Source: Comamonas sp. lk (GTDB lineage: Bacteria; Pseudomonadota; Gammaproteobacteria; Burkholderiales; Burkholderiaceae_C). Taken from it: a stretch of 47,557 bases of DNA. The stretch is from NCBI GenBank assembly GCA_945861345.1, contig CAMATX010000006.1, positions 1 to 47,557 of the forward strand, given 5' to 3'. Shown here in pieces: positions 6,101 through 20,876 of the stretch; position 1 is the stretch's first letter, and each line of letters begins with the position of its first letter. A program made the position numbers and the translations under genes. The notes under the pieces were generated by a model, which searched no databases, had not been told where the DNA came from, and saw only the letters and a program-made list of their open reading frames with translations.

Positions 6101-6806
6101 CGCCGGTATATAAAATAAATGGCTTGCTGACTCTCCATTTATCCAATAACTGATGACGCCTCGCTTCATCGACGTGCTGTGGACGAAAGGATGAGTCGCA
6201 TGCTGCCGATATATTTATAATTTTATCGGAGGGAATCGCGAGATGTTCGATCGCTTCCCTCCTAGATGAATCAGAAATCGACAGGCACAGGTCAGCACGT
6301 TGCATTGCTTCGATTCGCTGCCTGTAATACGTTTCGTAGGCCGGGTGGGGCGTCAAGTATTGCTCTGGATTGAGCAGCGGTATAAAGTCATAAACCGTCG
6401 TGCAAACCAATGTATGGTGGTCAAGACAACCAACGGTGACAATCGCATTGTCGACATAGCCTTCAAACAAGCTACTTATTAAAACCACATCCGGTTGCAG
6501 GCTGGCAATAAAAGCCTCGCGCAGATACTCGGCGACATTTGCACGGCAGATATTGTCGATATCATTTACGTTTACCGGTCCGGGCGCTGTCCAGACCTTA
6601 ACGTGCTCGGCGGGAATGATTCCTTCGAATGCTTGGCGTATGGGTTCAATACTCTGGGCAAACAGCCCATTAAGAACCAAAATCACCTCATTCGGGCCGC
6701 GATTACGCGCTATGGCCTGGCTAAGAGACAGCGTGTACCTGCCGATACCACGAAAGCGACTGGCAGTTTGTGCACCTTGCATGTCAATGACAATGCGCAT
6801 AATCAT
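3135..6806 (-). CDS. Giant glycosyltransferase with three GT-B (GT4-like) domains
   Basis: A 1223-residue protein built from three consecutive GT-B glycosyltransferase units. Unit 1 is about residues 1-415, with the start MRIVIDMQGAQ and EX7E at Glu319/Glu327 (HEGFGLPPLEA). Unit 2 is about 475-840, with EX7E at Glu732/Glu740 (AEGFGLPLAEA). Unit 3 is about 849-1210, where the motif reads ESASAAVRF from Glu1121, so the second Glu is replaced by Phe1129. Multi-domain enzymes of this kind, such as WbdA of E. coli O8/O9, polymerise mannan repeats; in the Pseudomonas D-rhamnan locus the work is split over WbpX, WbpY and WbpZ. I infer that this protein builds the repeat of the ABC-exported homopolymer. 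Its ATG overlaps the methyltransferase stop (ATGA). Residues 420-470 look like a linker. Confidence 0.85.
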   Translation of the reverse strand: MIMRIVIDMQGAQTASRFRGIGRYTLSLSQAIARNRGPNEVILVLNGLFAQSIEPIRQAFEGIIPAEHVKVWTAPGPVNVNDIDNICRANVAEYLREAFIASLQPDVVLISSLFEGYVDNAIVTVGCLDHHTLVCTTVYDFIPLLNPEQYLTPHPAYETYYRQRIEAMQRADLCLSISDSSRREAIEHLAIPSDKIINISAACDSSFRPQHVDEARRHQLLDKWRVSKPFILYTGGADHRKNLPRLIEAFAQLPADIRQAYQLLFAGRLSEIEIEHVNSTALLHDLSLADVRFTGFVSDDELVAAYNLCWLFVFPSWHEGFGLPPLEAMACGAVVIASDTSSLPEVMGLEAAMFNPLDVESIKEKLLQALTDRVFREQLVSHGLSQSKMFSWNLCAQTALRAFECEWQKRLDAVAEMRPLSEIYRHDYARLVKEVAANLKQWGAENDQTLVNVASCIDCNEREVASLRRTDLLPSRLLWRIEGPFDSSYSLALVNREFARGLVALGHDVALHSAEGGGDFPANPKFLAANEDLKNLHKRALALGSNQADVLSRFMYPPRVLDMDARHNFLHCYGWEESRFPSDWVQAFNEHLDGMTVMSQHVAKLLMDSGVRVPIAVTGLGVDHWERVEVGDTLTIQAKTFRFLHVSSCFPRKGIEELLRAYGLAFRASDDVTLVIKTFPNPHNQIHQWLSDIRTTDANFPDVLVLESDYSDSQLKSLYAQCQSLVAPSKAEGFGLPLAEAMLSGLAVITTGWSGQLDFCTSETAWLVEFDFVQTKSHFDLSDSVWAQPNVHHLARKLIEVHQSSASERAKRAGAGRQLLLAQFTWKQVAQRSEQALRKFTLVGEKNEPRIAWVSSWNTRCGIASYSQHMLEHMPADVQILASHTDAMVAGDDDRVVRCWHQGDDDSLVNLAATIDSADFDILVIQFNYGFFDLLALAGFVNSQIDAGRTVVTEMHSTTDPMQVSHKKIVDLVAALKRCDRVIVHSVADLNRLKTYGLVANVVLLPLGIIERHPGAKEAVIDRPFRIASYGYFLPHKGLLELIDAVVSLRDAGVSLELTMVNAQYPAPVSAETIAQARTKIAATHAQDQIVLRTDYLDDAQSLGYLSDADLIVFPYQKTGESASAAVRFGIASGVAVAVTPLGIFDDVRDAVHFLPGTSVEHISEGIDALMRAIQGEDASMVAKAKDNARWLADHRYSKLGIRLAGMLAALHFKNCALNGPRS

Positions 6807-7969
6807 TCCCCCTGATCTGCAAGTGCTTTTTTCAAATCATCCCGGATTTCTAACCCGCGGGGCGAGAGCCTTGGGGAGGCGTCAATTCGCCCTTTGACAT
6901 GACTGGGTAAGTAAGCCTTTTGGTCACATAGCGAGGAAGACAGCCTTTTGAATAAAGCGCCTAAGCGCATGGCAAGCCCGTGTTCGGCGAGTAATCTTTT
7001 CTGAAAATTCAACCAGCGCAAAGGTTTGGTAATTCGCCAAGATCGGCTCATATACACCGTATTGAGTTGGGCAAGAAAATCCAAATGCATTTGCGACTTG
7101 GCTTCCTGTACCGCAATTGCCGCCCATTGCACCTTCATTTCGGCTCGCTCGGTCATTGCAACTGCCTGGATCATTTGGTCTTGAAGCATTTGCACATTTG
7201 CACGAAGCGTTTTCAACTGCAAACTTATATTGTGGTCGTAGCGATCGAGAAGCGTTTGCAATGAAAGCCCAAAGTCTTTTGCAAACCCAATGTTCCACAT
7301 ACTCAGAATTTCAGCGGGAGCGCTCTTTTGGGCTATCACTGCGTAGTCGGGACTTGCTCCGCTGATAACCTCTGCAAGCGTGGGTGCGAAGTTAGTTCGC
7401 AGTTGCGCCGACTCCTGCAAACGCACTAATTTGATACGCTGGAAACCGTGTAATCTTGGCAAGAATGACAGTAACTCAGGCGGCAATGGCTTCTGGTGCG
7501 TTGGATCGAGATAAAAATTGCGGGTCGCCACGATCAGGTTTTCAGGGTTTGGTGTTTCCATGATCAACAAACCGGCGGGCAACAAAACCCGCAATGCTTC
7601 GGTAATCAGTACTTGGAGCTGCTCAAATTGCAAGTGCTCCACCAAATGGAAAGCAGACACGATGGCCTGACTTTGATCAGCAAGCGTGGCAAGGTAATCC
7701 AGTGCATCACCCCGATGGACTCTGAAACCCCTTTCCCGGCAGGACTCCAACATACCTTCGTCCAAATCAACGCCATGCGGGGAAAAACCCATAGATTGCA
7801 TTTTTTCAATCCACTCCCCGCGTCCACAGCCTAAGTCGACTACTTCTGCCTTGGGCAAGGCTGTCACCAAAGGTTGAAGAAAATCATCGTAAACCTGAAG
7901 ACGCTCAGTAATCAATGCGCGCGCGCCTCTGAAGCTCGATTCAAATTCTGTGTAAAAACTGTCCGTCAT
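6803..7969 (-). CDS. SAM-dependent methyltransferase with C-terminal helical tail, WbdD-like chain terminator
   Basis: A 388-residue class I methyltransferase. SAM motif I VVDLGCGRGEW is at about residues 43-53, the acidic end of strand beta2 is GVDLDEG, and a later block reads METPNPEN followed by YLDPTHQKPLP, as in the methyltransferase module of WbdD. Residues about 240-300 are rich in Gln, Ala and heptad-like Leu/Met, which suggests a coiled coil. A SRSWRITKPLRWL segment follows; it is common at the ends of polysaccharide enzymes. In E. coli O8/O9 WbdD caps the O-chain by methylation and scaffolds the polymerase through a coiled coil. This protein has no kinase domain. It sits between wzt and the giant glycosyltransferase with ATGA overlaps at both ends, which supports a role in chain termination (inference). 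Confidence 0.8.
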   Translation of the reverse strand: MTDSFYTEFESSFRGARALITERLQVYDDFLQPLVTALPKAEVVDLGCGRGEWIEKMQSMGFSPHGVDLDEGMLESCRERGFRVHRGDALDYLATLADQSQAIVSAFHLVEHLQFEQLQVLITEALRVLLPAGLLIMETPNPENLIVATRNFYLDPTHQKPLPPELLSFLPRLHGFQRIKLVRLQESAQLRTNFAPTLAEVISGASPDYAVIAQKSAPAEILSMWNIGFAKDFGLSLQTLLDRYDHNISLQLKTLRANVQMLQDQMIQAVAMTERAEMKVQWAAIAVQEAKSQMHLDFLAQLNTVYMSRSWRITKPLRWLNFQKRLLAEHGLAMRLGALFKRLSSSLCDQKAYLPSHVKGRIDASPRLSPRGLEIRDDLKKALADQGE

Positions 7970-9186
7970 GATTCAATTTTTAGTGAAATAGGTAGCCAAT
8001 TTGAACCAACGAAGTTAACTTTATCCACGTTTATGACATTAAATACAACTGCCAGATCACGCCATTCATAGTTTTTATGCAGATGGTTTTCCTGCGAATG
8101 CAGCGCTATCGCAATGGAGTATGACCCAGGCCCTAGGTTGGCTACAAAGTCGATCACAAATAAGTGGACACCTCCTGCTGCGGCCGGTGCGATGACCTGG
8201 TCCAAGTAATAGGTGTTCGTGCCAAATATGGGCTGGCCCATCCTGTCCTTGATCATGAATCCCAGCACCAGGTCCGGTATCGACTGGTTCACCTGGGTGC
8301 GAACCGTCAAGACCAGCTTCTCCGCCACCGCTACCACGTCGGCTTCCTTGCCGCTGGTATGAAGCAAGGAGACATCGAGGATTTGCGCTTCGCCCGACCC
8401 GGAAATGGTTTGCACTTTACCGTCCGTTCGTTGGATGCGATGCACTGCAGTAGTTTGACGCTGCGCCAACATGGCGTTGTAATAGTCCATTACCGCTTCG
8501 GGTGGTCCCTCCATGGCGATCTGACCACTATTGAGCAAAATCGCCCTATCGCAAATGCTTTGAATAGCTACCTTGTCATGGCTAACCATCAGCAAGGTGG
8601 TACCTTGTTCACGAAAAGTCCGAATTCGATCAAAACTTTTGTGCTGAAAATAGTCATCGCCCACCGACAGCGCTTCATCGACGATAAGTATATCGGGGCG
8701 TATGGCTGTGGCAACGCTAAAAGCCAAGCGCATTTGCATACCACTGCTATACACCCGAACGGGCTGATCTATATAGTCTCCAATTTCGGCAAAGGATTCG
8801 ATCTCAGGCATGAGATCGTTCATTTGTGACGTACTGATTCCCAATAGCTGCCCAGCCATGATCGCATTTTGGCGCCCGGTAAAGTCCGGGTGAAAGCCGA
8901 TTCCCAGTTCCAGCAATGCAGCGACGCGGCCGGTCATTTGGACGCTGCCCACGGTGGCCTGGGTAGTTCCCGTGATGAGTTTAAGCAAGGTGCTCTTGCC
9001 CGCACCATTAATTCCGATGATGCCTACCGATTCACCAGGCCGGACTGAAAAACTAATGTCTCGCAAAACCCATTTCAGACGATGGCGGGCCACAGCCCCG
9101 AAAAGTAACCACTCAGTCAACCTCCCCCAGCGCCCCTGATATTGCTTATAGGCCTTGCCTAATGAATGGACGGTGATACTACCCAT
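7966..9186 (-). CDS. wzt: O-polysaccharide ABC transporter ATPase Wzt with carbohydrate-binding tail
   Basis: A 406-residue ABC ATPase that powers export of finished, lipid-linked O-polysaccharide across the inner membrane together with Wzm. The nucleotide-binding domain fills residues 1-240: Walker A GINGAGKST at 58-66, a YSSGMQMR signature near 146, Walker B ILIVDE at 166-171 and H-loop His203. Residues about 260-400 form an extra beta-rich domain of the kind that, in E. coli O9a Wzt, binds the modified non-reducing end of the glycan. Its presence, with a methyltransferase gene next door, points to termination-coupled export. The start ATG shares one base with the wzm stop (TGATG), and the stop overlaps the methyltransferase start (ATGA), so the genes form one operon. 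Confidence 0.93.
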   Translation of the reverse strand: MGSITVHSLGKAYKQYQGRWGRLTEWLLFGAVARHRLKWVLRDISFSVRPGESVGIIGINGAGKSTLLKLITGTTQATVGSVQMTGRVAALLELGIGFHPDFTGRQNAIMAGQLLGISTSQMNDLMPEIESFAEIGDYIDQPVRVYSSGMQMRLAFSVATAIRPDILIVDEALSVGDDYFQHKSFDRIRTFREQGTTLLMVSHDKVAIQSICDRAILLNSGQIAMEGPPEAVMDYYNAMLAQRQTTAVHRIQRTDGKVQTISGSGEAQILDVSLLHTSGKEADVVAVAEKLVLTVRTQVNQSIPDLVLGFMIKDRMGQPIFGTNTYYLDQVIAPAAAGGVHLFVIDFVANLGPGSYSIAIALHSQENHLHKNYEWRDLAVVFNVINVDKVNFVGSNWLPISLKIES

Positions 9187-9980
9187 CAGAGTTCATCCAC
9201 CATTTCACCGCTGTGGTTGTGAAACATTCGCCATCCCAGTGCGCACAGCACAGTACCCGCGACCAAGGGTATGCAAAGGGATGGCCAGTCCGCGATACCC
9301 TGCCCGATAAAAACGCTTTGGTATGCACGAATGAGCGGAAACATCGGGTTCAATACCATCCAGTTACGCGCTGCTTGCGGGAGAATGTCTGAGGGGTAAA
9401 CAATCGGTGTCAGCCAGAACCATAATTGCAAAAATATTCCAAAAAACTGTCCGACATCGCGAAAGAAAACATTCAATACGCCCAAAACTATACCCAGTCC
9501 GGAAGCCAACAGAAGTTGAATCACCAAAAGAGGCACCAGATACAGCAAGCTCCATCCTGGCCAGTTATTAGATAATATTAAAAATATCAAGAAAAGGCTC
9601 AAGATAATCGCGAAGTTGATGCAGGCATTGAATACCAAAATTACCGGCAAAGTTAACCGTGGAAAACTAATTTTCTTTAGAAAATTGGCGTTTTCAATAA
9701 ATATGTTTTGTCCACGAGTCACTATTTCGGTAAACAAGCCCCAGGTCAGCAATCCAGCGCACAGATAAATACTGTATGCGAATTGCGTTTCGGCTCCAGG
9801 TAATCTCGCTTTCATCACCTGAGAAAATATAATGGTGTAGACCATAATCATGGCCATCGGATTGACAATGGTCCAGGCTGCGCCAAGAACTGAATTTTGG
9901 TATTTCGTCTCAAATTCCCGCTTCACACTTCCAAAGATGAAGCCTCGATAATTCCACAAGGATTGCAGCGTCGAGCCCAT
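9186..9980 (-). CDS. wzm: O-polysaccharide ABC transporter permease Wzm
   Basis: A 264-residue ABC-2 type integral membrane protein, the normal length for Wzm. It has the typical N-terminal amphipathic stretch ending in SVLGAAWTIVNP and about six hydrophobic segments (for example near residues 42-58, 68-85, 112-135 and 143-170). The pair LWFWLTPIVYP and LNPMFPLIRAYQ near the C-terminus is characteristic of polysaccharide export permeases. It forms the translocation channel with Wzt. It is the first gene of the minus-strand O-polysaccharide operon (9980 down to 1058). The 235 bp to the divergent glycosyltransferase at 10216 should hold the promoters for both directions, though I see no clear consensus boxes there. 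Confidence 0.92.
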   Translation of the reverse strand: MGSTLQSLWNYRGFIFGSVKREFETKYQNSVLGAAWTIVNPMAMIMVYTIIFSQVMKARLPGAETQFAYSIYLCAGLLTWGLFTEIVTRGQNIFIENANFLKKISFPRLTLPVILVFNACINFAIILSLFLIFLILSNNWPGWSLLYLVPLLVIQLLLASGLGIVLGVLNVFFRDVGQFFGIFLQLWFWLTPIVYPSDILPQAARNWMVLNPMFPLIRAYQSVFIGQGIADWPSLCIPLVAGTVLCALGWRMFHNHSGEMVDEL

Positions 9981-10215
9981 GGTGTGCGCAGGTCAATTCG
10001 GTTCAGTGATTGGAAAATGTCTTGGGACGCATCATAAGGCGCCGGCTCGGGAGTTCGCCAAGATGCTCCGCTGCCGCCCTCCGAGCCGTCAATCACGGAA
10101 ATGCAAACTCAGCACGCTGGGTCTGAAGCAAAAATCTCTGACGGGCCCCATTTAGCGGTTTTTCATACCTGACTGCGGCGTATTGAAGCAAAATGGGGAG
10201 CAAAACTGCCTGACT

Positions 10216-11361
10216 ATGCGCGTTCTTCATATTTACCGGACTTATTTTCCTGAGACGCAGGGCGGAGCGCAGGAGTCAATTCGCCAGTTGTGCCTGGCGA
10301 CCCAAACTTTGGGGGTCGACAACACTATATTCGCCCTCGCCCGTCAACCCGAGCCCTCGGCCATGGGTTTGCCGGAGGGGCGGTTGGTTCGCGCCAAATC
10401 TTGGTTGGAAATTGCCTCCTGCGACATCGGCGCCTGGACGGCAATACAACGTTGCCGTGCAGCGGCGGCGCAAAGCGACATCATTCAGGTGCATTATCCC
10501 TGGCCTTTCGCCGACCTTATGCTGCCTTGGATCCGCAATCGCAAGCAGCCAGTGCTGGTGACCTACATCTCTGACATCGTAAGGCAAAATGATTTAGGGC
10601 TGGGGCAGCTCTATGCGCCATTGCGCCGTCGGCTCTTGGGTGCGGCAAAGCACATCGTGGCCTCCTCTCCCAATTACGAACGTAGCAGCACCGTTTTGCA
10701 GCAATACCGGCATAAGTTGAGCTACATACCGCACTGCATGGGGCCGGCGCCATCTGTAGACAATGCATCCATTGGACACTGGCATGCGCGATTTGGCACC
10801 GATTTTTTCCTTTTTGTGGGCGTGCTTCGCTATTACAAGGGGCTTGATTTTCTATTGCAAGCTGCCGCACAAGTAAAAGTTCCGATTGTCATTGTGGGCG
10901 AAGGCCCGGAGGGCGATCGCCTGCGCCAGGAGGCCCAAATCAATGGCCTGACCAATGTGCATTTCTTAGGCGCCTTGAACGACGAACACAAAAACGCCTT
11001 GTTTCGCCTTTGTCGTGCCGTAGTTTTCCCTTCCCACCTGCGCTCTGAAGCCTTCGGCATGGCTTTGCTAGAAGGCGCACGTGTCGGTAGGCCTTTGATC
11101 AGTTGCGAAATTGGTACTGGTACGACTTGGATCAATATAGACGGCGAAACAGGGCTGGTGGTTCCCCCAGCCGATGGTGCAGCCTTGGCCAATGCCATGG
11201 CGCGGCTCAGCGAGGATGCGGCGCTTTGCGCTCGTTTAGGAGAAGGAGCCAAAAGGCGTTGGCAGGAACGCTTTACGCCACAGGTAGTGGGCCAGGCGTA
11301 TTGCGATTTGTATGCTCAACTGTGCGGCGCGCGCCCCTCGCCGGCGCAGATTGCGCAATAG
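10216..11361 (+). CDS. Family 4 glycosyltransferase, divergent from wzm
   Basis: A 381-residue GT-B glycosyltransferase of family GT4. The N-terminus MRVLHIYRTYFPETQGGAQ is a classic acceptor-side start with the glycine-rich loop. The donor half has FVGVLRYYKGLDFLL, IVGEGPEGD and the EX7E motif in SEAFGMALLEGA. I prefer the ATG at 10216 over the TTG at 10183, because the 11 extra residues are uncharacteristic and the family consensus begins at MRVLHIYRTY; a GGGGAG stretch lies upstream but is rather distant. It is transcribed away from the wzm operon and ends 11 bp before the cyclase gene start. It probably adds a sugar, perhaps an adaptor or primer residue, to the ABC-exported polysaccharide. 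Donor and acceptor are unknown. Confidence 0.85.
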   Translation: MRVLHIYRTYFPETQGGAQESIRQLCLATQTLGVDNTIFALARQPEPSAMGLPEGRLVRAKSWLEIASCDIGAWTAIQRCRAAAAQSDIIQVHYPWPFADLMLPWIRNRKQPVLVTYISDIVRQNDLGLGQLYAPLRRRLLGAAKHIVASSPNYERSSTVLQQYRHKLSYIPHCMGPAPSVDNASIGHWHARFGTDFFLFVGVLRYYKGLDFLLQAAAQVKVPIVIVGEGPEGDRLRQEAQINGLTNVHFLGALNDEHKNALFRLCRAVVFPSHLRSEAFGMALLEGARVGRPLISCEIGTGTTWINIDGETGLVVPPADGAALANAMARLSEDAALCARLGEGAKRRWQERFTPQVVGQAYCDLYAQLCGARPSPAQIAQ

Positions 11362-11372
11362 GACTGCTCGGT

Positions 11373-13220
11373 ATGCCTGAACCGCTATTGCTGCGTTGGT
11401 CGATCCGCTGGGCCATTGGTATTGCAGCAATTGGCTTTGCAGCCTGGATCCAATGGCAATGCCCGCCGCAAATAGGCAGACTTGAGGCGTCACTACGCGA
11501 TGCCTATTTGCGCATGCAAGCCGATACCCGCCCGGAAAACCGCCTCGTAGTTATCGATGTGAACGAAGAGAGCTTGCAGCAGCTGGGCCCCTGGCCCTGG
11601 CCCCGGGCACGACTGGCCGACCTGGTCGAGGTGGCCATCGTCGATGGCGGTGCCCGCGCCATCGCCTTGGATATGGTGCTACCCGAGGCAGCGGACAGCC
11701 CGGGCGATCGGCGCCTGGCTGCCCTTGCTCAGCATGCGCCGCTGACCTTGGCCCAGGTCATGGATTTCAGCCCTCGAGAGGTTCCCAATCAGGTCGGCGT
11801 GCTCGCCGCCGGACACTCTCCCAAGGGTGACCAACGAGAGGTGAGGGCGCTGGGATACATTGCAAACCACGCTGGTTTGGCTAACGCGCGTTGCGTCGGA
11901 AACATTGGCTACCTGCCTGATACGGACGGCGTACTGCGCCAAACTCCAGCGCTCAGTAGTTACGAAGGCAGATACTATTTACCGCTGGCTGCGGCCTTGC
12001 TTGATTGCGTGGATCCCCACGCGCCACTGGCCCAGGGAGATCGGCAAGGCCTCTGGCGTATTCCCTTTGGCCATGCCATCCAATCCTATACCGTTCTATC
12101 AGCAGCGGATGTGCTGTCGGGAAAGGTTGATCTCTCACTAATTCAAGGGCGCTTTGTATTCGTGGGCTCGTCGGCACTAGGTTTGAGCGATCGGGTAGCC
12201 ACCCCCGTTGAAGCTCTCGCGCCGGGCATGTTCGTGCATGCCGAAGCCCTTTCGGGCCTGCTCGATATTTCCGAAGGTAAGGCGCGCCTGCCATGGGACG
12301 CTTCGGCGTGGATGTTGGCTTGGACCGCCCTGAGCGTGTCTGGCGCATTGCTAGCCATTGCGTCCCTGGCCGCTTGGCATGGCACTCTGGTACTTTTGGC
12401 GCTCATGCTGGGATGGTTGGCACTGGCAGGCGCAGGCGTAGCAATGCAGGCCGAGTTTGCGCTAATCGCCCCTCTGACCGCCTTTTTTGTGGTATTGATA
12501 GTGGCCATCCCTTACGAATGGTGGCAATCGCAAGGCAGGGCACGCCGGCTTGTTGCGACTTTTTCCCACTATGTAGCAAAACCGGTACTCGATGAAATAT
12601 TGCGCCTTGGCCTAAACCACAGCCTCACGCCCACGCTGCGGGAAGTTACAGTTCTCATCGCCGATATGGAAGGGTATACCCGCGCTACGTCTAACCTTTC
12701 ACTGACGCAGGCGGCGCGCCTCACCAAAGAGTTTCTGGGGTGTCTTACGACGCCTGTGTTGACCCAGGGCGGCACCCTGGACAAATACACAGGTGACGGA
12801 CTCGTGGCATTTTGGGGTGCACCAGTGCCTGCCAAGGACCACGCCGACCGGGCCGTACAAGCTGGGCTGGACATTTTGACAATGGTCGCTTATTGGAATG
12901 AACAGCGCTTGGCCCAGGGACAGACCGCGCTGCGGGTGCGCATCGGCATCGAAAGCGGGCCTGCGCTGGTCGGCGACCTGGGTACGCCATTTCGTAGCAC
13001 CTATACGGCGGTGGGGGACTGCATCAACTATGCCTCTAGGTTGGAGGCAGCGGCACGTGACCTACCTACCGATTTGGTGATTGGTCCGAACACCCAGGCA
13101 CTTTTGCAGCGCCACCCCACCCGATCTCTGGGGTCCATCAAGTTACGTGGCGTTGCTGCCCCTTTGGAAGTGTTTGCGCTGATCGCCCAGGGGGCCCCAG
13201 GCAGCAACACAGTTGATTAG
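11373..13220 (+). CDS. CHASE2-domain class III adenylate/guanylate cyclase
   Basis: A 615-residue membrane signalling enzyme expected to make cAMP (or cGMP) in response to an extracytoplasmic cue. An N-terminal membrane helix is at about residues 10-28. A CHASE2 sensor domain follows at about 40-280, with RLVVIDVNEESL, GPWPWPRARLADLV and FVFVGSSALGLSDRVATP. Three membrane helices lie at about 312-380, and the class III cyclase domain at about 425-600. Metal-binding aspartates are Asp431 (IADMEG) and Asp475 (YTGDG); Lys471 sits where adenylate cyclases carry the adenine-selecting lysine, and TAVGDCINYASRLE matches the Asn/Arg active-site helix. The start is the ATG at 11373, just after the previous stop; the open frame back to 11103 lies inside the previous gene. 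It precedes the type I secretion operon by 80 bp. Confidence 0.88.
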   Translation: MPEPLLLRWSIRWAIGIAAIGFAAWIQWQCPPQIGRLEASLRDAYLRMQADTRPENRLVVIDVNEESLQQLGPWPWPRARLADLVEVAIVDGGARAIALDMVLPEAADSPGDRRLAALAQHAPLTLAQVMDFSPREVPNQVGVLAAGHSPKGDQREVRALGYIANHAGLANARCVGNIGYLPDTDGVLRQTPALSSYEGRYYLPLAAALLDCVDPHAPLAQGDRQGLWRIPFGHAIQSYTVLSAADVLSGKVDLSLIQGRFVFVGSSALGLSDRVATPVEALAPGMFVHAEALSGLLDISEGKARLPWDASAWMLAWTALSVSGALLAIASLAAWHGTLVLLALMLGWLALAGAGVAMQAEFALIAPLTAFFVVLIVAIPYEWWQSQGRARRLVATFSHYVAKPVLDEILRLGLNHSLTPTLREVTVLIADMEGYTRATSNLSLTQAARLTKEFLGCLTTPVLTQGGTLDKYTGDGLVAFWGAPVPAKDHADRAVQAGLDILTMVAYWNEQRLAQGQTALRVRIGIESGPALVGDLGTPFRSTYTAVGDCINYASRLEAAARDLPTDLVIGPNTQALLQRHPTRSLGSIKLRGVAAPLEVFALIAQGAPGSNTVD

Positions 13221-13274
13221 GACAGATCTGAAATTTTGACAGGTCAGGCACCGTCGTTTTTCGAGCACGAAAAA

Positions 13275-13305
13275 TTCATATATGATATACTTGCTCATAT
13301 ATGAA
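13275..13305 (+). promoter_or_regulatory. Paired 10-bp palindromes over the start codon of the secretion operon
   Basis: Two identical self-complementary decamers TCATATATGA lie at 13276-13285 and 13295-13304, 19 bp centre to centre, about two helical turns. With one more base on each side they form a perfect 11-bp inverted repeat with a 9-bp spacer. The second decamer contains the ATG at 13301. A TATACT box at 13286-13291 could act as a -10 element, which would put the transcript start almost on the ATG. No Shine-Dalgarno sequence precedes this ATG, so a leaderless mRNA is possible. The layout is typical of an operator for a dimeric repressor or autoregulator; the ligand protein is unknown. 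Confidence 0.55.
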
Positions 13306-13942
13306 TACATCACTGCGCGTCCCGCTCAATGCGTCCCCAGAACAATCTCAGCGACTGCAAGCACTGCAGGCTTTGTTTGCGCAGGCGTGCAATGCATTGT
13401 CTCCCGTGGTTCAGCAGTCGCGCATTTGGAACCGAGTGGCCTTGCACCACTTAATGTATCGAACGCTGCGCGCCCGCTTTCCTGACCTTGGCTCGCAAAT
13501 GGTCTGCAATGCAATTTACTCGGTCTCGCGCACATCGCGGTTGGTCTTTCAGCACCCCGACAGTCCGCTCAACCTGACCAAACTGGGCGACAAGCCCCTG
13601 CCCCTGCTGCGCTTTACAGACCAGTGCCCGGTGTACTTTGACCGTCATACCCTGAGCGTTAAAGATGGCCAGTTGTCCATGTACACCCTGGACGGGCGAA
13701 TGCGCTTCGCACTGGCGCTCTCGCCCCAGGACGAGGCTAATTTCAAAGTGTATAAATTGCTCGAGATCGTGCTCTCTGGCAGCGATGCCAGCAATTACTG
13801 CCTCGCTTTCCAATTTAGCGATGCCTCGGTGTCTGCTGCTCCAGTGCTGGAAGACGCCCCCCCCGAGGCTACTGGCGAGCCTGCGCCACCCTCTGCGGGC
13901 GCTGCCCTGCCCGATTACGTTTTGGTCGAGGAGACCCCATGA
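13301..13942 (+). CDS. Truncated TnpB-like protein (IS200/IS605 OrfB N-terminal half, no RuvC)
   Basis: A 213-residue protein homologous to the N-terminal part of IS200/IS605 TnpB. The shared pattern is SPEQ (13-15), QACNALS (28-34), LHHLMYRTLRARF then LGSQMVCNAI (48-72), and YFDRHTLSVKDGQ followed by LSMYTLDGRM (112-134). In TnpB these blocks form the helical recognition and wedge domains that hold the guide RNA and DNA. Everything after them is missing: there is no RuvC DED motif and no zinc ribbon. The C-terminus (about 178-213) is instead Pro/Ala/Glu-rich. The stop overlaps the exporter ATPase start as ATGA, so the two are co-translated, and no transposon end or tnpA is seen. Function is unknown; a nucleic-acid-binding regulator of the secretion operon is my inference. 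It appears intact rather than decaying, since the frame continues cleanly into the coupled junction. Confidence 0.72.
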   Translation: MNTSLRVPLNASPEQSQRLQALQALFAQACNALSPVVQQSRIWNRVALHHLMYRTLRARFPDLGSQMVCNAIYSVSRTSRLVFQHPDSPLNLTKLGDKPLPLLRFTDQCPVYFDRHTLSVKDGQLSMYTLDGRMRFALALSPQDEANFKVYKLLEIVLSGSDASNYCLAFQFSDASVSAAPVLEDAPPEATGEPAPPSAGAALPDYVLVEETP

Positions 13943-15675
13943 ACCCCAATAACCCCCCCTCCGAGTTACGCACCGCCATCGGCGCGCTGAGCCCTTATTT
14001 CCGCCAAGCCGCCTGGTTCAGCGTATTTACCAATCTATTGGTCCTGGCGCCCTCAGGCTATATGTTGGAGGTCTACGACCGGGTGCTCAACAGCAGCGAC
14101 GTGATGACCTTGGCCATGCTGACCTTGCTGGTTTTGGGTGCCTACGCCCTGATGGAGGTGCTCGAGTGGGTGCGCTCGGAGGTGATGCACGAAGCCGCGG
14201 TGGATTTTGACAAGCAATTTAACCGCCGCATCTTTGACGCCATTTTCGAGGCCAACCTCAAACGCCTGCCCTTTGGCACCGCGCAGGCCATGAACGATTT
14301 CCGGTCAGTGCGCGACTTCCTGGGTGCACCCGTCCTCATGGCGATGATGGACGCGCCGATGTCACTGCTATTTTTGGTGCTTATTTTCATGATCAGCCCG
14401 GTGCTGGGCTGGGCCTCTGTGATTGCCGCGGTCGCCCAAACGCTGATCGGCTGGCTCAATGAGCGCAGCACCCAGCCGCCTTTGATGGCGGCCAACCGCA
14501 GCGCAATTGGCGCCCAGCAATACGCCGACAACACCTTGCGCAACGCCCAGGTCATCGAGGCTATGGGGATGCTTCGGGACATCCATAAACGCTGGTTCAA
14601 AAAGCAAGAAGAATTTCTGAACCTACAGGCTACCGCCTCGGACCATGGCGGTTTTTACCAGGCGCTCTCCAGATTTTTACAAAACACCATCAGCTCGGGC
14701 CTCTTGGGCCTGGGTGCCTGGCTCTTGCTAAACAACCAGCTCAATGGCGGCGCCTCGTACATGATCGTGGGCTCCATTTTGGGCGGGCGGGTGCTTGCGC
14801 CGTTGGGCCAATTGGTGGCGCAATGGCAAATGGTGGTCAATGTTCGCGTGGCCTACGCCCGACTTGACGCGGTTTTGAACGCGGTACCTGCTAAGCCCGA
14901 ATCCATGCAACTGCCCCCGCCCAGCGGGCAGTTGCTGGTCGAGCAGGTCATGGCAGGCGCCCCCGGCTCGCAGGTCGCTATCTTTCGCGGCGTGGCCTTC
15001 GCACTGAACCCCGGCGAAGTGCTGGCGGTGGTCGGGCCATCGGCCTCGGGCAAGACGACCTTGGCGCGTCTGCTGGTGGGCCTGTGGCCAGCGGCCAGCG
15101 GCAAGGTGCGCCTTGACGGCGCAGATATCTATAGCTGGGACAAAAACCACCTCGGCCCCTTCGTGGGCTACCTGCCCCAAGGCGTTGAATTGTTTGACGG
15201 GACCATCGCCGACAACATCGCCCGCTTTGGCGTCATTGATACCGCGCAGGTAGAGGCCGCAGCCAGGGCCGTTGGCCTGCACGAGCTGATCACGGCCTTG
15301 CCCAAAGGCTACGACAGCCAGGTTGGGCGCGATGGCGCGGTCTTGTCGGGCGGTCAGCGCCAACGCGTCGGCCTGGCCCGCGCGATTTACGGGCGCCCCG
15401 CCTTTGTGGTTCTGGACGAGCCTAACTCCAGCCTAGACGAACAAGGCGATGCCGCTTTGGCTGCCAGCATCGCCAACCTCAAGGCCAGCGGCACCACCTT
15501 TGTCGTCATGACGCACCGCACCAGCGTTTTGGGCGTCGCCGACAAGATGCTTGTGCTGCGCGACGGACAGCAACAAATGTTTGGCCCCCGCGACGAGGTT
15601 CTCAAAGCCTTGAATGAAGCAGCCACCAAGGCGCGAGCCCCGGCTGCAGGCGCCACAGCACCTGCAGCCGCCTGA
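13939..15675 (+). CDS. Type I secretion ABC exporter (permease-ATPase), first copy
   Basis: A 578-residue fused membrane-ATPase subunit of the PrtD/HasD type that energises direct export of unfolded cargo from cytoplasm to outside. About six membrane helices fill residues 25-305. The ATPase domain has Walker A GPSASGKTT at 366-374, signature LSGGQ at 469-473, Walker B FVVLDE at 489-494 with D-loop SLDE, and H-loop His526. All catalytic residues are present. There is no N-terminal C39-like domain, as expected for the PrtD group. A strong GAGGAG ribosome site lies before the ATG, which overlaps the stop of the TnpB-like gene. A second, similar exporter follows after 17 bp, so the two may work as a heterodimer. 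Confidence 0.92.
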   Translation: MNPNNPPSELRTAIGALSPYFRQAAWFSVFTNLLVLAPSGYMLEVYDRVLNSSDVMTLAMLTLLVLGAYALMEVLEWVRSEVMHEAAVDFDKQFNRRIFDAIFEANLKRLPFGTAQAMNDFRSVRDFLGAPVLMAMMDAPMSLLFLVLIFMISPVLGWASVIAAVAQTLIGWLNERSTQPPLMAANRSAIGAQQYADNTLRNAQVIEAMGMLRDIHKRWFKKQEEFLNLQATASDHGGFYQALSRFLQNTISSGLLGLGAWLLLNNQLNGGASYMIVGSILGGRVLAPLGQLVAQWQMVVNVRVAYARLDAVLNAVPAKPESMQLPPPSGQLLVEQVMAGAPGSQVAIFRGVAFALNPGEVLAVVGPSASGKTTLARLLVGLWPAASGKVRLDGADIYSWDKNHLGPFVGYLPQGVELFDGTIADNIARFGVIDTAQVEAAARAVGLHELITALPKGYDSQVGRDGAVLSGGQRQRVGLARAIYGRPAFVVLDEPNSSLDEQGDAALAASIANLKASGTTFVVMTHRTSVLGVADKMLVLRDGQQQMFGPRDEVLKALNEAATKARAPAAGATAPAAA

Positions 15676-15692
15676 TCCATGGAAACCCTCTT

Positions 15693-17426
15693 ATGAACCA
15701 AGCCCACTCCCCCACCCCCCGCAGCGCGCTGCGCACCACTTTGTGGAGCTTTCGCGGTGCATTCCTGAGCGTTGGCGGCTACAGCCTGGTTGCCAATTTA
15801 CTGATGCTCTCGCCGACCTTGTACATGCTCCAGGTGTACGACCGCGTGCTCCAAAGCCAAAGCGAACTCACGCTTTTGGCCATGTCGATGCTGACCCTGG
15901 CCATGTTTGCCGTGATGGCCGCCGCCGAGTGGATGCGCTCTCGCCTGCTCGTGCGCGCCGGCGTGGCGCTGGACGCGCGCCTGAGCACCCAGGTTTTTAA
16001 CGCAAGCTTTGACGCCTACCTCAACCAAACGGGCAACTCGCCCTCGCGTGCCTTTAGCGACCTGATTCAGGTGCGTCAATTCCTCACCGGCAATGGTATT
16101 TTTGCCTTCTTTGATGCGCCCTGGACGCCGATTTACATGGCGGTGCTGTTTTTCCTGCACCCCATGCTCGGCTGGTTGGGCATTGTCTTTGCGCTGGTGC
16201 AACTGGCCTTGGCCAAATTCGGCCACCAGGGCACGCTCGCGCCCAGCGAAGCGGCCACAGCGGCCAACACAGACGCTGGTATCTTTTTACAAAGCAAGCT
16301 GCGCAACGCTGAGGTAATCGAGTCCATGGGCATGCTGCGTAATCTGCAAAGGCGCTGGCTGCAACGCCATGATTTTGCGATGCAGCGCAGCGGCCAAGCC
16401 CAGCACGTGAGCCACCGCATCACCGCGATCAGCAAGTTTGTGCGGTACAGCCAGCAATCACTGGTACTTGGCGCGGGCGCTTTGCTCGTGATCCAGGGCG
16501 AGCTCTCCCCCGGCGGAATGATCGCAGCCAATGTGCTGATGACCCGCGCGCTGGCCCCCATCGACCTGATGGTGAGCAGCTGGCGCCAGTTTGCCGGCAT
16601 GCGGGCCGCTTTTGAACGGTTGGAAAAGCTGCTGGCCGATTACCCCGAGCGCGACCATCGCCTGCAACGCGTCGCCCCCAGCGGCGCCATCCATTTGCAA
16701 AACGCCGTCGCTACAGCGCCAGGGCGCAAAGAAGCCATCCTAAAAGACGTCAGTGTCAGCGCTCTGCCGGGCAGTGTCACCGTTATCCTGGGTCCCTCGG
16801 GCTCGGGAAAATCGACGCTGGCGCGCGTCATGGTGGGCATCTGGCCTGACGTTAGCGGCAATGTCTTACTCGACGAACTGCCCATCGCCTCATGGAACCG
16901 GGAGGAGCTCGGCCCGCATATCGGCTACCTGCCTCAAGACGTGGAGTTGTTTGAGGGCACGATTGCCGAAAACATCGCCCGCTTTGGCAGCAGTAACAGC
17001 GCGCCCATCATTGAAGCGGCCAAAGCCGCCGGTCTGCACGAGATGATTTTGCGCTTCCCCAAGGGCTATGACACCTCCACGGGCGAGGCGGGCAATCTGC
17101 TCTCGGGCGGGCAGCGTCAGCGACTCGGCTTGGCCCGAGCGATCTACGGCAATCCCAAGCTGGTGGTGCTGGACGAACCCAACGCCAACCTCGACGATGC
17201 CGGCGAGGCGGCCTTGCAGCAAACCGTGGTACGCCTCAAGGCCCAGGGCAAAACCGTGGTGCTGATCACCCACCGCCCAGGCGCCGTCGCGGTGGCAGAC
17301 CACCTGCTGATCCTCAACAACGGGCAGGTCCAAGCCCGTGGACCGCGTGATGCAGTAATTGCTGCGCTGCAAGCAGCGCAAAAGAACGCCGCTGCAGCGG
17401 CTCCGAGTGCGGCCTTGCCCGCTTGA
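15693..17426 (+). CDS. Type I secretion ABC exporter (permease-ATPase), second copy
   Basis: A 577-residue paralogue of the preceding exporter with the same plan: a membrane domain over about residues 25-305, then an ATPase with Walker A GPSGSGKST at 367-375, signature LSGGQRQR near 470, Walker B LVVLDE near 490-495 and H-loop His527. Landmarks such as YMLQVYDRVL, NAEVIESMGMLR and IGYLPQDVELFEGTIAENIARFG match those of the first copy, so the pair probably arose by tandem duplication followed by divergence. Both copies keep intact ATPase motifs, so neither is obviously a degenerate partner. Tandem PrtD-like genes followed by one adaptor and one channel suggest a heterodimeric inner-membrane pump, or two pumps sharing one exit duct. 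Confidence 0.92.
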   Translation: MNQAHSPTPRSALRTTLWSFRGAFLSVGGYSLVANLLMLSPTLYMLQVYDRVLQSQSELTLLAMSMLTLAMFAVMAAAEWMRSRLLVRAGVALDARLSTQVFNASFDAYLNQTGNSPSRAFSDLIQVRQFLTGNGIFAFFDAPWTPIYMAVLFFLHPMLGWLGIVFALVQLALAKFGHQGTLAPSEAATAANTDAGIFLQSKLRNAEVIESMGMLRNLQRRWLQRHDFAMQRSGQAQHVSHRITAISKFVRYSQQSLVLGAGALLVIQGELSPGGMIAANVLMTRALAPIDLMVSSWRQFAGMRAAFERLEKLLADYPERDHRLQRVAPSGAIHLQNAVATAPGRKEAILKDVSVSALPGSVTVILGPSGSGKSTLARVMVGIWPDVSGNVLLDELPIASWNREELGPHIGYLPQDVELFEGTIAENIARFGSSNSAPIIEAAKAAGLHEMILRFPKGYDTSTGEAGNLLSGGQRQRLGLARAIYGNPKLVVLDEPNANLDDAGEAALQQTVVRLKAQGKTVVLITHRPGAVAVADHLLILNNGQVQARGPRDAVIAALQAAQKNAAAAAPSAALPA

Positions 17427-17483
17427 GCCTTTTTTGATTTCTACCCAGACCCTGTTTCACCCTCAACTTTTGTCGGACCTGCC

Positions 17484-18866
17484 ATGACTACACCCCCCGT
17501 CAACCAACGCATCGCCTCCAAACTGGCCTCAGCGCACGGTGCACCCAGCGAAGCCACCCTCGTCTCCCCAGCCGATCACTTGCAGCCCGCACCTTCGGGA
17601 CGCGCAGGGCGCATTGGCGCTTGGACGTTGGGCGTAGGCCTAGTGGGCTTGCTGGTTTGGACAGCCATGGCGCCGCTCGATGAAGGCGTTCCCGGCCCTG
17701 GCCTAGTGGCCATCGACACCAAGCGCAAAGTCATCCAGCACCTCAGCGGCGGCCTTGTCAAAGAGGTGTTTGTGCGCGAGGGGCAAGAAGTCAAGGAAGG
17801 CGAACTGCTTTTGCGCCTGGACGAAGCCGCCTCGCGCGCCAACTTCGAAGCTGCGCGCCAACGCTACATCGGCCTGCGAGCCATGCAAGACCGTCTGCAG
17901 GCCGAGCAGCGCGGCCACAGCAGCATCAGCTTGCACCCCGACGTAGTGCAAGCGGCGCGCGATCCGCAGATTCAATTGGTGGTGGCCACCCAGCAGCAGC
18001 TCTTCGGTTCGCGCCGGGCCAGCCTGGGCGCCGACCTGCAAAGCATGCAGGAAAACATCGCCGGACAGGAAGGCATGATCTTGGCCTACGAAAACATGAG
18101 TGCCAATCGCAAGAATCAGTTGGCGCTGCTGACCGAAGAGCTCACTAACACCAAAGGCCTGGTCGCCGAGGGCTACGCCCCGCGCAACCGCCAGCTGGAA
18201 TTGGAGCGCCAAGTCTCCGAGATGGGCTCGGCATTGGCCGAACTGCAAGGCAATTTGACCCGTGCCAAGCGGGCCATCGCCGAGGTACGCCAGCGCATGG
18301 TGGCGCGCCAGCAAGAGTTCAACAAAGAGGTGGAGTCGACTTTGGCCGACGTGGGTCGCGAGGTCGAGGCGGACCAAGAGAAATACCGCGCCATCCAAGG
18401 CGATATGGGACGCTTAGAGATCAAGGCCCCGGCGGCCGGCCAGGTGGTAGGTTTGACGGTGCAATCCATTGGCGCGGTGATCGGTGCAGGCCAAAAGTTG
18501 ATGGACATCGTGCCCAAAGAACAAGCCTTGTTAATCGAGGCCAAGGTGGCGCCCCACCTGATTGACAAAGTCCGCACGGGTATCCCTGTCGATGTGCGCT
18601 TTTCGTCTTTTTCCAACACTCCGCAGTTGGTTGTTAAGGGCTCTGTGCAGTCCGTCTCGGGCGATCTCATCGTCGAGCAAAATGGCATGGCCTATTACCT
18701 TGCGCGCATCAGTATTACTGAAGAGGGCTTTAAAGCGTTGGGCGACCGGCAATTGCAATCGGGTATGCCGGTGGAGGTGATTTTCATCACCGGCAAGCGC
18801 TCAGTGCTGACCTACCTGCTACACCCCTTGATGAAGCGTATGGCCGCTTCCATGAAGGAAGAATAA
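17484..18866 (+). CDS. HlyD/PrtE-family periplasmic adaptor of type I secretion
   Basis: A 460-residue membrane fusion protein that bridges the inner-membrane exporter and the TolC channel. One membrane helix lies at about residues 43-63 after a short cytoplasmic N-terminus. A lipoyl half-motif follows (VIQHLSGGLVKEVFVREGQEV, about 83-103). A long Glu/Gln/Arg-rich alpha-hairpin spans about 115-300 and the second lipoyl half starts near 310 (LEIKAPAAGQVVGL). The C-terminal beta-barrel region contains PVDVRFSSF and SGMPVEVIFITGKRS, and the tail YLLHPLMKRMAASMKEE is typical of the family. The gene lies 57 bp after the second exporter and 2 bp before tolC. I see no terminator in the gap, so it belongs to the same operon. 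Confidence 0.93.
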   Translation: MTTPPVNQRIASKLASAHGAPSEATLVSPADHLQPAPSGRAGRIGAWTLGVGLVGLLVWTAMAPLDEGVPGPGLVAIDTKRKVIQHLSGGLVKEVFVREGQEVKEGELLLRLDEAASRANFEAARQRYIGLRAMQDRLQAEQRGHSSISLHPDVVQAARDPQIQLVVATQQQLFGSRRASLGADLQSMQENIAGQEGMILAYENMSANRKNQLALLTEELTNTKGLVAEGYAPRNRQLELERQVSEMGSALAELQGNLTRAKRAIAEVRQRMVARQQEFNKEVESTLADVGREVEADQEKYRAIQGDMGRLEIKAPAAGQVVGLTVQSIGAVIGAGQKLMDIVPKEQALLIEAKVAPHLIDKVRTGIPVDVRFSSFSNTPQLVVKGSVQSVSGDLIVEQNGMAYYLARISITEEGFKALGDRQLQSGMPVEVIFITGKRSVLTYLLHPLMKRMAASMKEE

Positions 18867-18868
18867 GT

Positions 18869-20236
18869 ATGAAGAAGACCTCTGCCCCCGAACTTCAGCG
18901 CGCAAACGCCCTGTGCAAACATGCCACAGCGCTTGCGCTTTTGGGCGTGTGCGGCTTAGCTCCCGCCATGGACTTGCTACAAGCCTATGAAGCAGCCCGC
19001 CAAAACGACCCCAATATTTTGGCTGCACGCGCAGCTGCCGACATTGGCCGCGAGCGCCTGCCTCAAGCCTTGGCGCAACAAATGCCCAACGTATCGTTCA
19101 GCGCGCAGTACGGCAAAAACCGGTTGGCCAGCACCTCGCCCAATTTTCTGGGGGTGGACCAGACTATCAACACCGAGTACCCCAGCACCAGCCAAACCCT
19201 GACTATTCGCCAGCCGATTTACCGCAGCTACCTGTTAGCGCAAACTCGCCAGGCCCAGGCCCAGTTTGAAGAGGCCGAGGCCACTTTGGCCCAAGAGGAG
19301 CAAAATCTGCTAGCCCGAGTTACCGGCAGCTACTTGGAAGCTCTGCTGTCCCAAGAGCAACTCGAACTGGTGCTGGCCCAACGCGCCGCCAACACCACGC
19401 AACTGGATATCGCCCGCAAAGCCTTTGCTGCAGGCGCAGGCACCCGTACCGACATTGATGAGGCCCAGGCCCGCCTGGACAGCACGCTGGCCCTGGAAAT
19501 CGAGGCACGCCAAAACAAGGCCTACACCTTACGCCAGTTAGAACAATTGACCGGCAGCCCAGCGGGCGTGCTGGCGCGCCTGAATTTGGCTAATTTCACG
19601 CTGGCCGACCCGCAACCGGCCGACTTGGACACCTGGATTGCCCGGGCCGAGCACAGCAGCCCCCAGCTACTCAGCCTGCAAGCCCAGCTGGAAACCGCGC
19701 GCCAGGAAGTGGACAAAGCCAGTTCCGGCCACGAGCCGACCTTGGACGCCACGCTCCAATGGACCAGCAGCGCCAGCGAAAACGTCTACAACGTCCGCAA
19801 CAGCTACACCAACGCGAGCGTCGGCGTGCAGCTCACGATTCCGATTTACGGCGGCGGCTATACCAGCTCCCAGGTGCGCCAAGCCCTGGCCCAGCAAGAG
19901 CGTGCCAGCCAGGCGCTGGAGGCCGGACGGCGCGATCTGGGCATGCGGGTTTTCCGGGAATTGCGTGGCGTGACCGAAAACATCCCCAAGGTGCGCGCAC
20001 TGGAAAAAGCCCTGAGCTCGGCCGAGCAGCTGATTGTGTCCAACCGCAAGTCCTTCCAGGCCGGCACCCGCACGGTGATCGACATCCTGAACGCCGAACA
20101 GCAGCGCTTTTTGGTACTGCGGGATTTGGCGCAGGCGCGTTATGTGTACCTGAGCGCGCGGATCCGTTTGCTGTCTTTGGTCGGCGAGGCCGATTTGGGT
20201 GCCTTGAATGCCATCAACCATATGTTTGGCCCCTGA
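18869..20236 (+). CDS. TolC-family outer membrane channel of type I secretion
   Basis: A 455-residue outer membrane factor. It starts with a long signal sequence whose hydrophobic core is about residues 19-32, with a likely cut after Ala33, just before MDLLQAYEAARQNDPNIL, the usual TolC mature start. Two OEP repeats follow: alpha-hairpins with NLLARVTGSYLEALLSQEQL and AGTRTDIDEAQARLD in the first, and SVGVQLTIPIYGGGYTSSQVRQA and AGTRTVIDILNAEQQRF in the second. The trimer would form the outer-membrane and periplasmic exit duct for the upstream pump. A GGAAG ribosome site precedes the ATG. This is the last gene of the operon, followed by a strong terminator at 20263-20296. Confidence 0.93.
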   Translation: MKKTSAPELQRANALCKHATALALLGVCGLAPAMDLLQAYEAARQNDPNILAARAAADIGRERLPQALAQQMPNVSFSAQYGKNRLASTSPNFLGVDQTINTEYPSTSQTLTIRQPIYRSYLLAQTRQAQAQFEEAEATLAQEEQNLLARVTGSYLEALLSQEQLELVLAQRAANTTQLDIARKAFAAGAGTRTDIDEAQARLDSTLALEIEARQNKAYTLRQLEQLTGSPAGVLARLNLANFTLADPQPADLDTWIARAEHSSPQLLSLQAQLETARQEVDKASSGHEPTLDATLQWTSSASENVYNVRNSYTNASVGVQLTIPIYGGGYTSSQVRQALAQQERASQALEAGRRDLGMRVFRELRGVTENIPKVRALEKALSSAEQLIVSNRKSFQAGTRTVIDILNAEQQRFLVLRDLAQARYVYLSARIRLLSLVGEADLGALNAINHMFGP

Positions 20237-20262
20237 GGTCGGCGCTTCTTTGGTTGCAAGAA

Positions 20263-20296
20263 AAAAGCCCTGGAACTTTGCAGTTCCAGGGCTTTT
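20263..20296. terminator. Bidirectional intrinsic terminator between tolC and tRNA-Arg
   Basis: A perfect 15-bp inverted repeat (arms 20263-20277 and 20282-20296) encloses the loop TTGC. The arms end in AAAA on the left and TTTT on the right, so the hairpin has a U-tract in both directions. It can end the type I secretion transcript on the plus strand and the tRNA-Arg transcript on the minus strand. Confidence 0.9.
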
Positions 20297-20300
20297 CAAT

Positions 20301-20377
20301 TGGTGCGGCTGGCAGGAATCGAACCCACGACCCCTTGGTTCGTAGCCAAGTACTCTATCCAGCTGAGCTACAGCCGC
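20301..20377 (-). tRNA. tRNA-Arg (anticodon ACG)
   Basis: Read on the minus strand, the 77-nt sequence folds as a cloverleaf. The 7-bp acceptor GCGGCTG pairs with CAGCCGC, the D-arm includes GCTCAGCTGGATAGAGT, and the anticodon stem CTTGG/CCAAG encloses the loop CTACGAA with ACG at positions 34-36. The T-arm contains GGGTTCGATTCC. Discriminator A and an encoded CCA lie at 20301-20304. A34 would be deaminated to inosine by TadA so that the tRNA reads CGU, CGC and CGA. It lies alone, 4 bp from the shared terminator. Confidence 0.96.
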
Positions 20378-20537
20378 TAAGCGTTCAATTCTAGCATAGG
20401 CCGCTTCTGATACCGCTACGCGGCGACCTTAAGGCTGGCAGGCAGTCCTGTACGGTCGGTGACATACGCGCCAATTCCGTCAAGGGAGTGATCTCTACAA
20501 TAATGCGCTCCACCACCCCGTTTAAGAAGGAAATGCT

Positions 20538-20834
20538 ATGAGCCTGGAATCAATGACCGAATCGATGCGCGCAAAAATGGGCGCTGACAGCGGCCTGGAT
20601 GCAACCCTGAAATTTGACTGCGGTAGCGATGGCGTTATCGTTTTGGACGGTGTCTCTAAGCCCAACAGTGTTTCCAACACCAACCAAGACACCGACTGCA
20701 CCATCCTCATCAGCCTGGAAAACCTGCAAGCCCTGCTCGACGGCGAACTCAACGCCGTGACCGGCTTTATGAGCGGCAAACTCAAGGTCGAAGGCGACAT
20801 GAGCGTCGCCATGAAACTGCAAAGCGTGGTCTAA
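20538..20834 (+). CDS. SCP2 sterol-binding domain protein
   Basis: A 98-residue stand-alone SCP2 domain, a small alpha/beta fold with a hydrophobic tunnel that binds lipids or acyl-CoA. The family pattern is clear in CTILISLENLQALLDGELNA and TGFMSGKLKVEGDMSVAMKL. There is no signal peptide, so it should be cytoplasmic. An AAGGA ribosome site lies 6 bp before the ATG at 20538. It is a single-gene unit between two tRNA genes, closed by its own terminator. Such proteins are widespread in Burkholderiales and often lie near lipid metabolism genes, but the ligand here is unknown. Confidence 0.88.
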   Translation: MSLESMTESMRAKMGADSGLDATLKFDCGSDGVIVLDGVSKPNSVSNTNQDTDCTILISLENLQALLDGELNAVTGFMSGKLKVEGDMSVAMKLQSVV

Positions 20835-20840
20835 ATAAAA

Positions 20841-20870: not shown

Positions 20871-20876
20871 CGCACT

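Follow-up and report, generated by a model that had tools for sequence, protein, structure and literature searches.

The window analysed here is the whole stretch of 47,557 nucleotides of Comamonas sp. lk contig CAMATX010000006.1. It contains a gene, here called TnpB-N, which is the first of an operon of type I secretion genes and which lies downstream of a CHASE2-cyclase gene (Table 1). The five neighbouring genes scanned are the cyclase and the secretion genes, and no tnpA was found among them. The stop codon of TnpB-N overlaps the ATG of the first exporter ATPase at 13939 (ATGA), and the coupling of the two genes read in an earlier note on this DNA is thus confirmed. The true start of the cyclase is probably downstream of the position given in Table 1. 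Among the loci L002-L023, several of which are short, a match to this cyclase was observed only in the close relative L002. Directly upstream, ABC-type polysaccharide export and glycosyltransferase genes were recognized by eye at 3135-11361 of the window.

Table 1. Features of the TnpB-N locus (positions in the window)
Feature	Position	Strand	Remarks
CHASE2-cyclase gene	11103-13220		ends 80 nt 5' of TnpB-N
Left half-site, TTCATATATGA	13275-13285	+	abuts the -10-like box; commonest family form TTCATATAGGA
-10-like hexamer TATACT, between the arms	13286-13291	+	9 nt before the ATG
Right half-site, TTCATATATGA on the minus strand	13295-13305	-	overlaps the start codon
TnpB-N gene, encoding the WED and REC part of TnpB; no RuvC, no zinc ribbon	13301-13942	+	213 aa, ATG start
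REC helix, residues 64-84, with GSQMVCN	13490-13552	+	predicted fold, hhalign, conservation
Pro/Ala/Glu-rich linker, residues 176-200	13826-13900	+	pLDDT <50 at 178-199; conservation
Conserved C-terminal stretch, residues 201-211 (AALPDYVLVEE)	13901-13933	+	conservation; modelled strand 207-210
First type I secretion ABC permease/ATPase, PrtD family, ATGA-coupled	13939-15675	+	TIGR01842, E 1e-196
Second PrtD-family ABC permease/ATPase	15693-17426	+	TIGR01842, E 1.5e-200
HlyD-type periplasmic adaptor	17484-18866	+	TIGR01843, E 4e-106
TolC-type outer membrane channel	18869-20236	+	TIGR01844, E 3.9e-88

The protein stops at residue 213 and matches 0 Pfam families; as the earlier note had read, RuvC and the TNB zinc ribbon (PF07282) are both absent from its sequence and from the Pfam scan. 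The same note described a Pro/Ala/Glu-rich tail. This holds for residues 176-200, whose mean conservation is 0.70, but not for the tail as a whole, which is closed by the stretch 201-211 with a mean conservation of 0.91 and with P204, Y206 and V209 invariant in 18 rows. One may speculate that this last stretch is secretion-signal-like.

Searches with the single TnpB-N sequence against Pfam, NCBIfam, PHROGs and the PDB (0 matches) missed the link to TnpB. An 18-row family profile run against the PDB gave Replication protein E1 as its best row at E 0.51, a chance level, and this candidate was rejected. The link was nevertheless established by a search of genomes with the profile and by the fold. 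The matches of the 18-member profile in the genomes include open frames of 395-548 aa (E 1e-37 to 2.5e-6), of which L034, L036, L037 and L039 carry both PF07282 and PF01385 (PF01385 being below the cut-off in L037) and L044 carries PF01385 only. The predicted fold of TnpB-N (pLDDT 84.7, pTM 0.81) is that of a TnpB/Cas12f WED-REC lobe: at E<=0.1, Foldseek returned 29 rows, all of them Cas12, TnpB or Fanzor chains, with ISDra2 TnpB (8exa) at E 3.9e-5 and a VIA Z of 10.9, and the model resembles Cas12f, ISDra2 TnpB, ISFba1 TnpB, Cas12k and Fanzor chains. An hhalign comparison of the family and its sister TnpBs with four canonical TnpBs gave a probability of 94 and E 1.2e-7. These results agree with one another and with the homology to the N-terminal part of TnpB claimed in the earlier note. 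In a tree of 40 chosen rows, in which long branches were flagged by the program (L053, L036 and L037, L038, L039), the 19 family rows form one side of a branch among the TnpBs with a support of 99/98. Profile, fold and tree show that TnpB-N is derived from TnpB, and the tree is consistent with a single event, in line with the separate domestication suggested before. In the genome of the window itself, no PF01385 match was found at E<=1e-8.

In a database search limited to proteins of 0.55-1.75 times the query length, 4650 proteins match TnpB-N at E<=1e-3, and none of the best 120 has a Pfam domain. Within the same taxonomic family, 200 genomes were searched: 16 have a near-complete gene, and three further ones give short matches only. 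The dN/dS ratio is 0.05-0.18 over seven pairs, with dS partly saturated. A type I secretion ABC gene, the exporter ATPase, lies directly 3' of TnpB-N in 23/23 loci (L001-L023, including the window; two of the contigs, L005 and L008, come from one genome), with a four-base overlap of the ATGA type in 17 of them, and by eye the same arrangement was seen in L066 and L069-L072, which belong to other taxonomic families. The homologues are therefore full-length, exporter-linked and under purifying selection, and not the decaying fragments at random positions which, by the earlier note, would have refuted its reading.

Several side observations were made in these loci. Serralysin-like, RTX/DUF4214 and trypsin-like proteins, perhaps secreted cargo, are encoded beside the operons at L006:15069-16592, L070:1923-3116 and 10363-11577, and L066:1-897. 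L066 (G738:C3) also contains, at 6905-7504 on the minus strand, a divergent stand-alone TnpB-N (43% identity) that precedes a PrtD-like gene, as judged by eye, and has the single palindrome TTCATATATGAA at its start. Finally, L025:1450-1758 (minus strand), L026 and one similar frame encode proteins of about 80-105 aa that resemble the REC helices only (36-38% identity over 62-77 residues) and perhaps constitute a REC-only family.

The TnpB-N gene is preceded by a 31-nt inverted repeat at 13275-13305, which the earlier note had not mentioned. It reads TTCATATATGA-N9-TCATATATGAA, encloses a -10-like box and extends over the start codon. The box matches TATAAT at 5 of 6 positions and is the best hexamer of the stretch, chosen without a chance control; a sigma-70 scan of 13000-14100 revealed no complete promoter, and the box is taken as a putative one. 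The arm TTCATATATGA occurs in its own genome at 13275-13285 and 13295-13305 only. The full repeat occurs there once, and no match with <=3 mismatches was obtained in 100 shuffles. By eye, no Shine-Dalgarno sequence could be recognized; the operon mRNA is thus probably leaderless, and the repeat would act as DNA.

Across the family the half-site is TTCATATANGA, in which position 9 is variable. The letter at this position is identical between the two arms in 21/21 pairs (T/T in 2, A/A in 2, G/G in 17). Paired arms were found in 20 of the 26 loci compared: in 15 loci they converge, 9-23 nt apart (L014 has a further pair with a gap of 28), and in five (L004, L005, L008, L010 and L011) they are everted and abutting. 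The six unpaired loci comprise a tandem pair (L009), one site (L013, L015), one palindrome (L023, L066), and one site with a weaker one (L029). In the 15 convergent loci a -10-like hexamer lies between the arms, 7-14 nt before the ATG, with 4-6 of 6 matches (again the best hexamer, without a chance control), and in most of them the right arm includes the start codon. In five loci the -10-like box comes after both arms. Control at the RNA level, in which the repeat would form an mRNA hairpin that hides the start codon and is bound by TnpB-N, would suit the arms that match each other across a loop of varying length, as in a stem-loop, and the right arm that holds the start codon, and TnpBs do bind RNA; we regard it as very improbable, since a -10-like box between the arms places the left arm outside the mRNA, and since both arms can also precede the box. 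A rigid dimer is unlikely too, because the spacing and the orientation of the arms vary and six loci are unpaired. This variable geometry suggests that the half-sites are bound separately, perhaps by units tied together by the linker and the C-terminal strand.

The presence of the half-site was compared with that of the gene. With at most one mismatch, TTCATATANGA was found within 330 nt upstream of the gene in 26/29 family loci and in 0/425 random, mostly coding, 345-nt stretches of the same loci; L071, L032 and L072 have no half-site even at two mismatches. The strict inverted repeat was detected in 9 of the 200 genomes, once in each, all nine being among the 16 that bear the gene and none among the 184 others (Fisher 1e-11, genomes taken as independent), and a reversed-pattern control gave 0/200. 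Among 30 loci with relatives of the first exporter (PrtD1), the half-site was present in 16/16 with a near-complete gene (in L115 only at one mismatch) and in 0/13 without the gene (Fisher 1.5e-8), these 16 loci partly overlapping the 29 family loci; the remaining locus has a gene fragment at a contig edge and no half-site. Two of the 13 gene-free loci encode exporters 65% identical to that of the window. As the right arm overlaps the start codon, its absence from loci without the gene is trivial, and the left arm alone provides the independent test. In the 15 other gene-bearing genomes, 24/24 exact TTCATATAGGA sites are at the TnpB-N promoter; the exact form is absent from two of the 16 gene-bearing genomes (G025 and G024).

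These data bear on the idea that TnpB-N belongs to the secretion machine as a structural or chaperone-like part, anchored there by its C-terminal stretch, and that an unrelated regulator binds the repeat. The four-base overlap with the exporter gene, the conservation of the C-terminal stretch and nine positions that are fixed differently in the TnpBs and in the family would all be compatible with such a part. We consider it unlikely, because related exporters do without TnpB-N in the 13 gene-free loci, which also lack the repeat, and because the half-site tracks the gene, opens with TCAT and is shared by several related TnpBs at their start.

The half-site is not fully specific to TnpB-N. The window contains 8 half-sites in all at no more than one mismatch, as compared with a shuffle mean of 0.74, and four of them, each with one mismatch, lie outside the promoter (3035, 6260, 31714 and 40808). 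The sole exact TTCATATAGGA of the genome of the window (L140, G000:C1:1102-1112) covers the start codon of a gene for a 368-aa AAA ATPase (PF13191) and is possibly a second target, possibly a chance occurrence. A relative of this ATPase, 89% identical, in G048 has no half-site, and among 21 copies a half-site covers the start in two only, the exact one of this genome and one with one mismatch in L172, which comes from a genome, G032, that has no TnpB-N gene. A general start context of leaderless genes was also considered as the origin of the half-site; it is ruled out by this leaderless-looking ATPase gene, of which 19/21 copies lack the half-site.

In transposons that encode TnpB, the TAM is the sequence immediately 5' of the left end. 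The half-site begins with TTCAT, which is followed by ATANGA. In IS copies with related TnpBs, TTCAT stands immediately before the left end in 6/7 cases in G218 and in 2/3 cases in G346, with different flanks before it; the two of G346 are the copies with a readable left end, and the exceptions are L036, without an intact left end, and L045, which reads N there. TTCAT itself comes from these more distant TnpBs. In the nearer TnpBs L133, L134 and L137, comparison of copies places the beginning of the shared left end at TCAT, after A, T and C, and by eye the motif is ATCAT in L136, TTCAT in L138 and GTCAT in G247. The shared core is thus TCAT, since the preceding base varies (NTCAT). Descent of the 5' end of the half-site from the target motif of the IS may be proposed on this basis; the likeness is short, and the chance of a 4-mer falling somewhere in an 11-mer was estimated by us at about 6%.

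The half-site also occurs in the nearer TnpBs themselves, which come from six viral-contig loci and one plasmid locus. With at most one mismatch it covers the start codon of tnpB in 5/6 of the viral-contig loci (L133, L134, L136, where it is exact, L137 and L138) and is absent from that of L135, and in G247 it lies at the start with two mismatches. No half-site was seen, partly by eye, at the start of the TnpBs of L036/L043, L037, L038, L039 and L139. Several IS TnpBs already have the ATAGGA part at their start codon; a left arm was found in the domesticated family alone. In 339 genomes of the class, a search with P0131 at E<=1e-60, run without a positive control, yielded no nearer TnpB. By eye, the tnpB promoters of L133, L134 and L137 look leaderless, with TTGACT near -36, about 17 nt, TATTCT and the half-site over the start codon.

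According to the accessible part of PMC10097598, the TAM is read in ISDra2 by Y52, S56, K76, F77, Q80, T123 and N124. The register of the REC helix given by MAFFT was judged wrong twice and was replaced by hhalign, which pairs Q80 with C69, and by helix continuity, which places K76 at S65 and F77 at Q66. The comparison is limited to these three contacts, the placement of Y52, S56, T123 and N124 being uncertain. G64, S65, Q66 and C69 are identical in 121/121 family rows (top hits) and in 120/120 nearest TnpBs; alanine replaces S65 in L007 and L053, and the more distant TnpBs vary at these positions. The modelled helix 64-84 is likely the equivalent of the TAM-reading helix of ISDra2. In all, 31 positions are at least 95% fixed and identical in the family and in the sister TnpBs (P0122-P0241). 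The mean net charge of REC is +5.2 in the family versus +2.2 in the TnpBs, and that of the second half of WED is -2.1 versus +1.9. The latter change is a sign that guide-RNA binding has probably been lost, which would make direct reading of DNA more likely than a TldR-like mode.

A TldR reduced to a minimum has also to be weighed: TnpB-N would hold a short guide RNA made elsewhere, and the half-site would consist of a TAM (TTCAT) and a 6-nt seed match (ATANGA). Such a division into 5 plus 6 nt is compatible with the requirement of TldR for seed nucleotides 1-6 beside the TAM, as described in the accessible part of PMC13418256, and the variable letter falls within the would-be seed. The lack of RuvC and zinc ribbon speaks against it, all the more as the guide scaffold of ISDra2 rests on WED and RuvC (PMC10097598, accessible part) and the second half of WED in TnpB-N is no longer positively charged. 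The ATGA overlap with the next gene leaves no 3' room for an omegaRNA, and ATAGGA is already present at the start codon of several IS TnpBs, whose guides derive from variable flanks. A Rfam scan of 12500-21000, which excludes little, found only two tRNAs above threshold. Altogether this guided mode appears improbable.

We consider it reasonably probable, from these sequence comparisons, that TnpB-N is a guide-free, TAM-reading autoregulator of the type I secretion operon that it heads, and that it most likely acts by repression. The evidence is most simply read as autoregulation by the protein alone, because the TAM-recognition lobe has been kept, the nuclease and probably the guide have been lost, and the half-sites lie at the promoter of the gene itself, the first of its operon. 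Starting from an ancestral TnpB, the RuvC half would have been lost and the lobe made up of WED and REC would remain. The half-sites, just 5' of most family genes and usually around a -10-like box, would have inherited their TTCAT from the target motif of related IS copies. TnpB-N may bind them through its REC/WED cleft and would then block RNA polymerase, keeping the operon silent as long as no signal lifts the block; such a signal might act by way of the flexible linker and the conserved C-terminal stretch, or of the coupled exporter. The half-site at a second copy of the ATPase gene, the TnpBs without a half-site and the four one-mismatch sites of the window weigh slightly against this autoregulator and against the more tentative proposal given below. 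The role in regulation of the operon that the earlier note had suggested gains support from the promoter repeat, while the DNA binding which it implies is putative.

The same autoregulator could instead be an activator that recruits polymerase from the left half-site to promoters devoid of a good -35. The lack of a complete sigma-70 promoter in the scan of 13000-14100 would fit this mode, as would TTGACT near -36 (by eye) in L133, L134 and L137, close to the position of the left half-site in the domesticated family. It seems to us quite unlikely, because in many loci the right half-site overlaps the start codon and the presumed start site, and an operator over the start site is in a position typical of repression.

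More tentatively, and as a proposal that may well fail, the TAM/PAM-reading lobe of TnpB or Cas12 could act alone, with neither guide RNA nor nuclease, as a protein-only transcription factor whose operator goes back to the ancestral TAM (TCAT plus ATAGGA). In the parent clade, some TnpBs would control themselves through a site at the start codon, to which domestication would have added a second site by the -10 box and the secretion operon. Single WED-REC units on half-sites, tethered by the flexible linker and the C-terminal strand, would account for the variable spacing of the arms.

No description of the TnpB-N family was found in a literature search, most subscription papers being outside its scope. 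As far as the accessible text of PMC13418256 describes them, the known TnpB exaptations, the TldRs, keep a guide RNA. If the proposed reading is true, TnpB-N makes the TAM-reading lobe a usable stand-alone DNA-binding domain. It then offers a path by which RNA-guided recognition could have evolved into recognition by protein alone, and a small natural system in which the encoding of TAM specificity can be tested. A group of operons for type I secretion would moreover have its regulator named, and some IS TnpBs would be suggested to control their own promoter.

TldR is the nearest known kind to TnpB-N: in both, a TnpB has been exapted from its transposon and tied to a non-transposon gene, whose transcription it is thought here to control. 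In TldRs the RuvC domain is inactivated and the protein works together with a guide RNA (PMC13418256, accessible part), whereas TnpB-N is without RuvC altogether, has TAM-like half-sites as its presumed target and gives no sign of a guide. With the TnpBs of IS200/IS605 elements (ISDra2 and the sister set P0122-P0241) it shares the WED-REC lobe, but it lacks RuvC and the TNB zinc ribbon and stands alone in a secretion operon. Cas12f also has WED-REC protomers; TnpB-N differs from it by the absence of the nuclease half, and the identity in the VIA rows is 9-14%. Classical autorepressors have a palindromic operator over the -10 box and the start site. TnpB-N resembles them by the inverted repeat at its own promoter and by its place as first gene of the operon, but it would use the WED-REC cleft rather than a helix-turn-helix or ribbon-helix-helix, on arms that vary in spacing and orientation.
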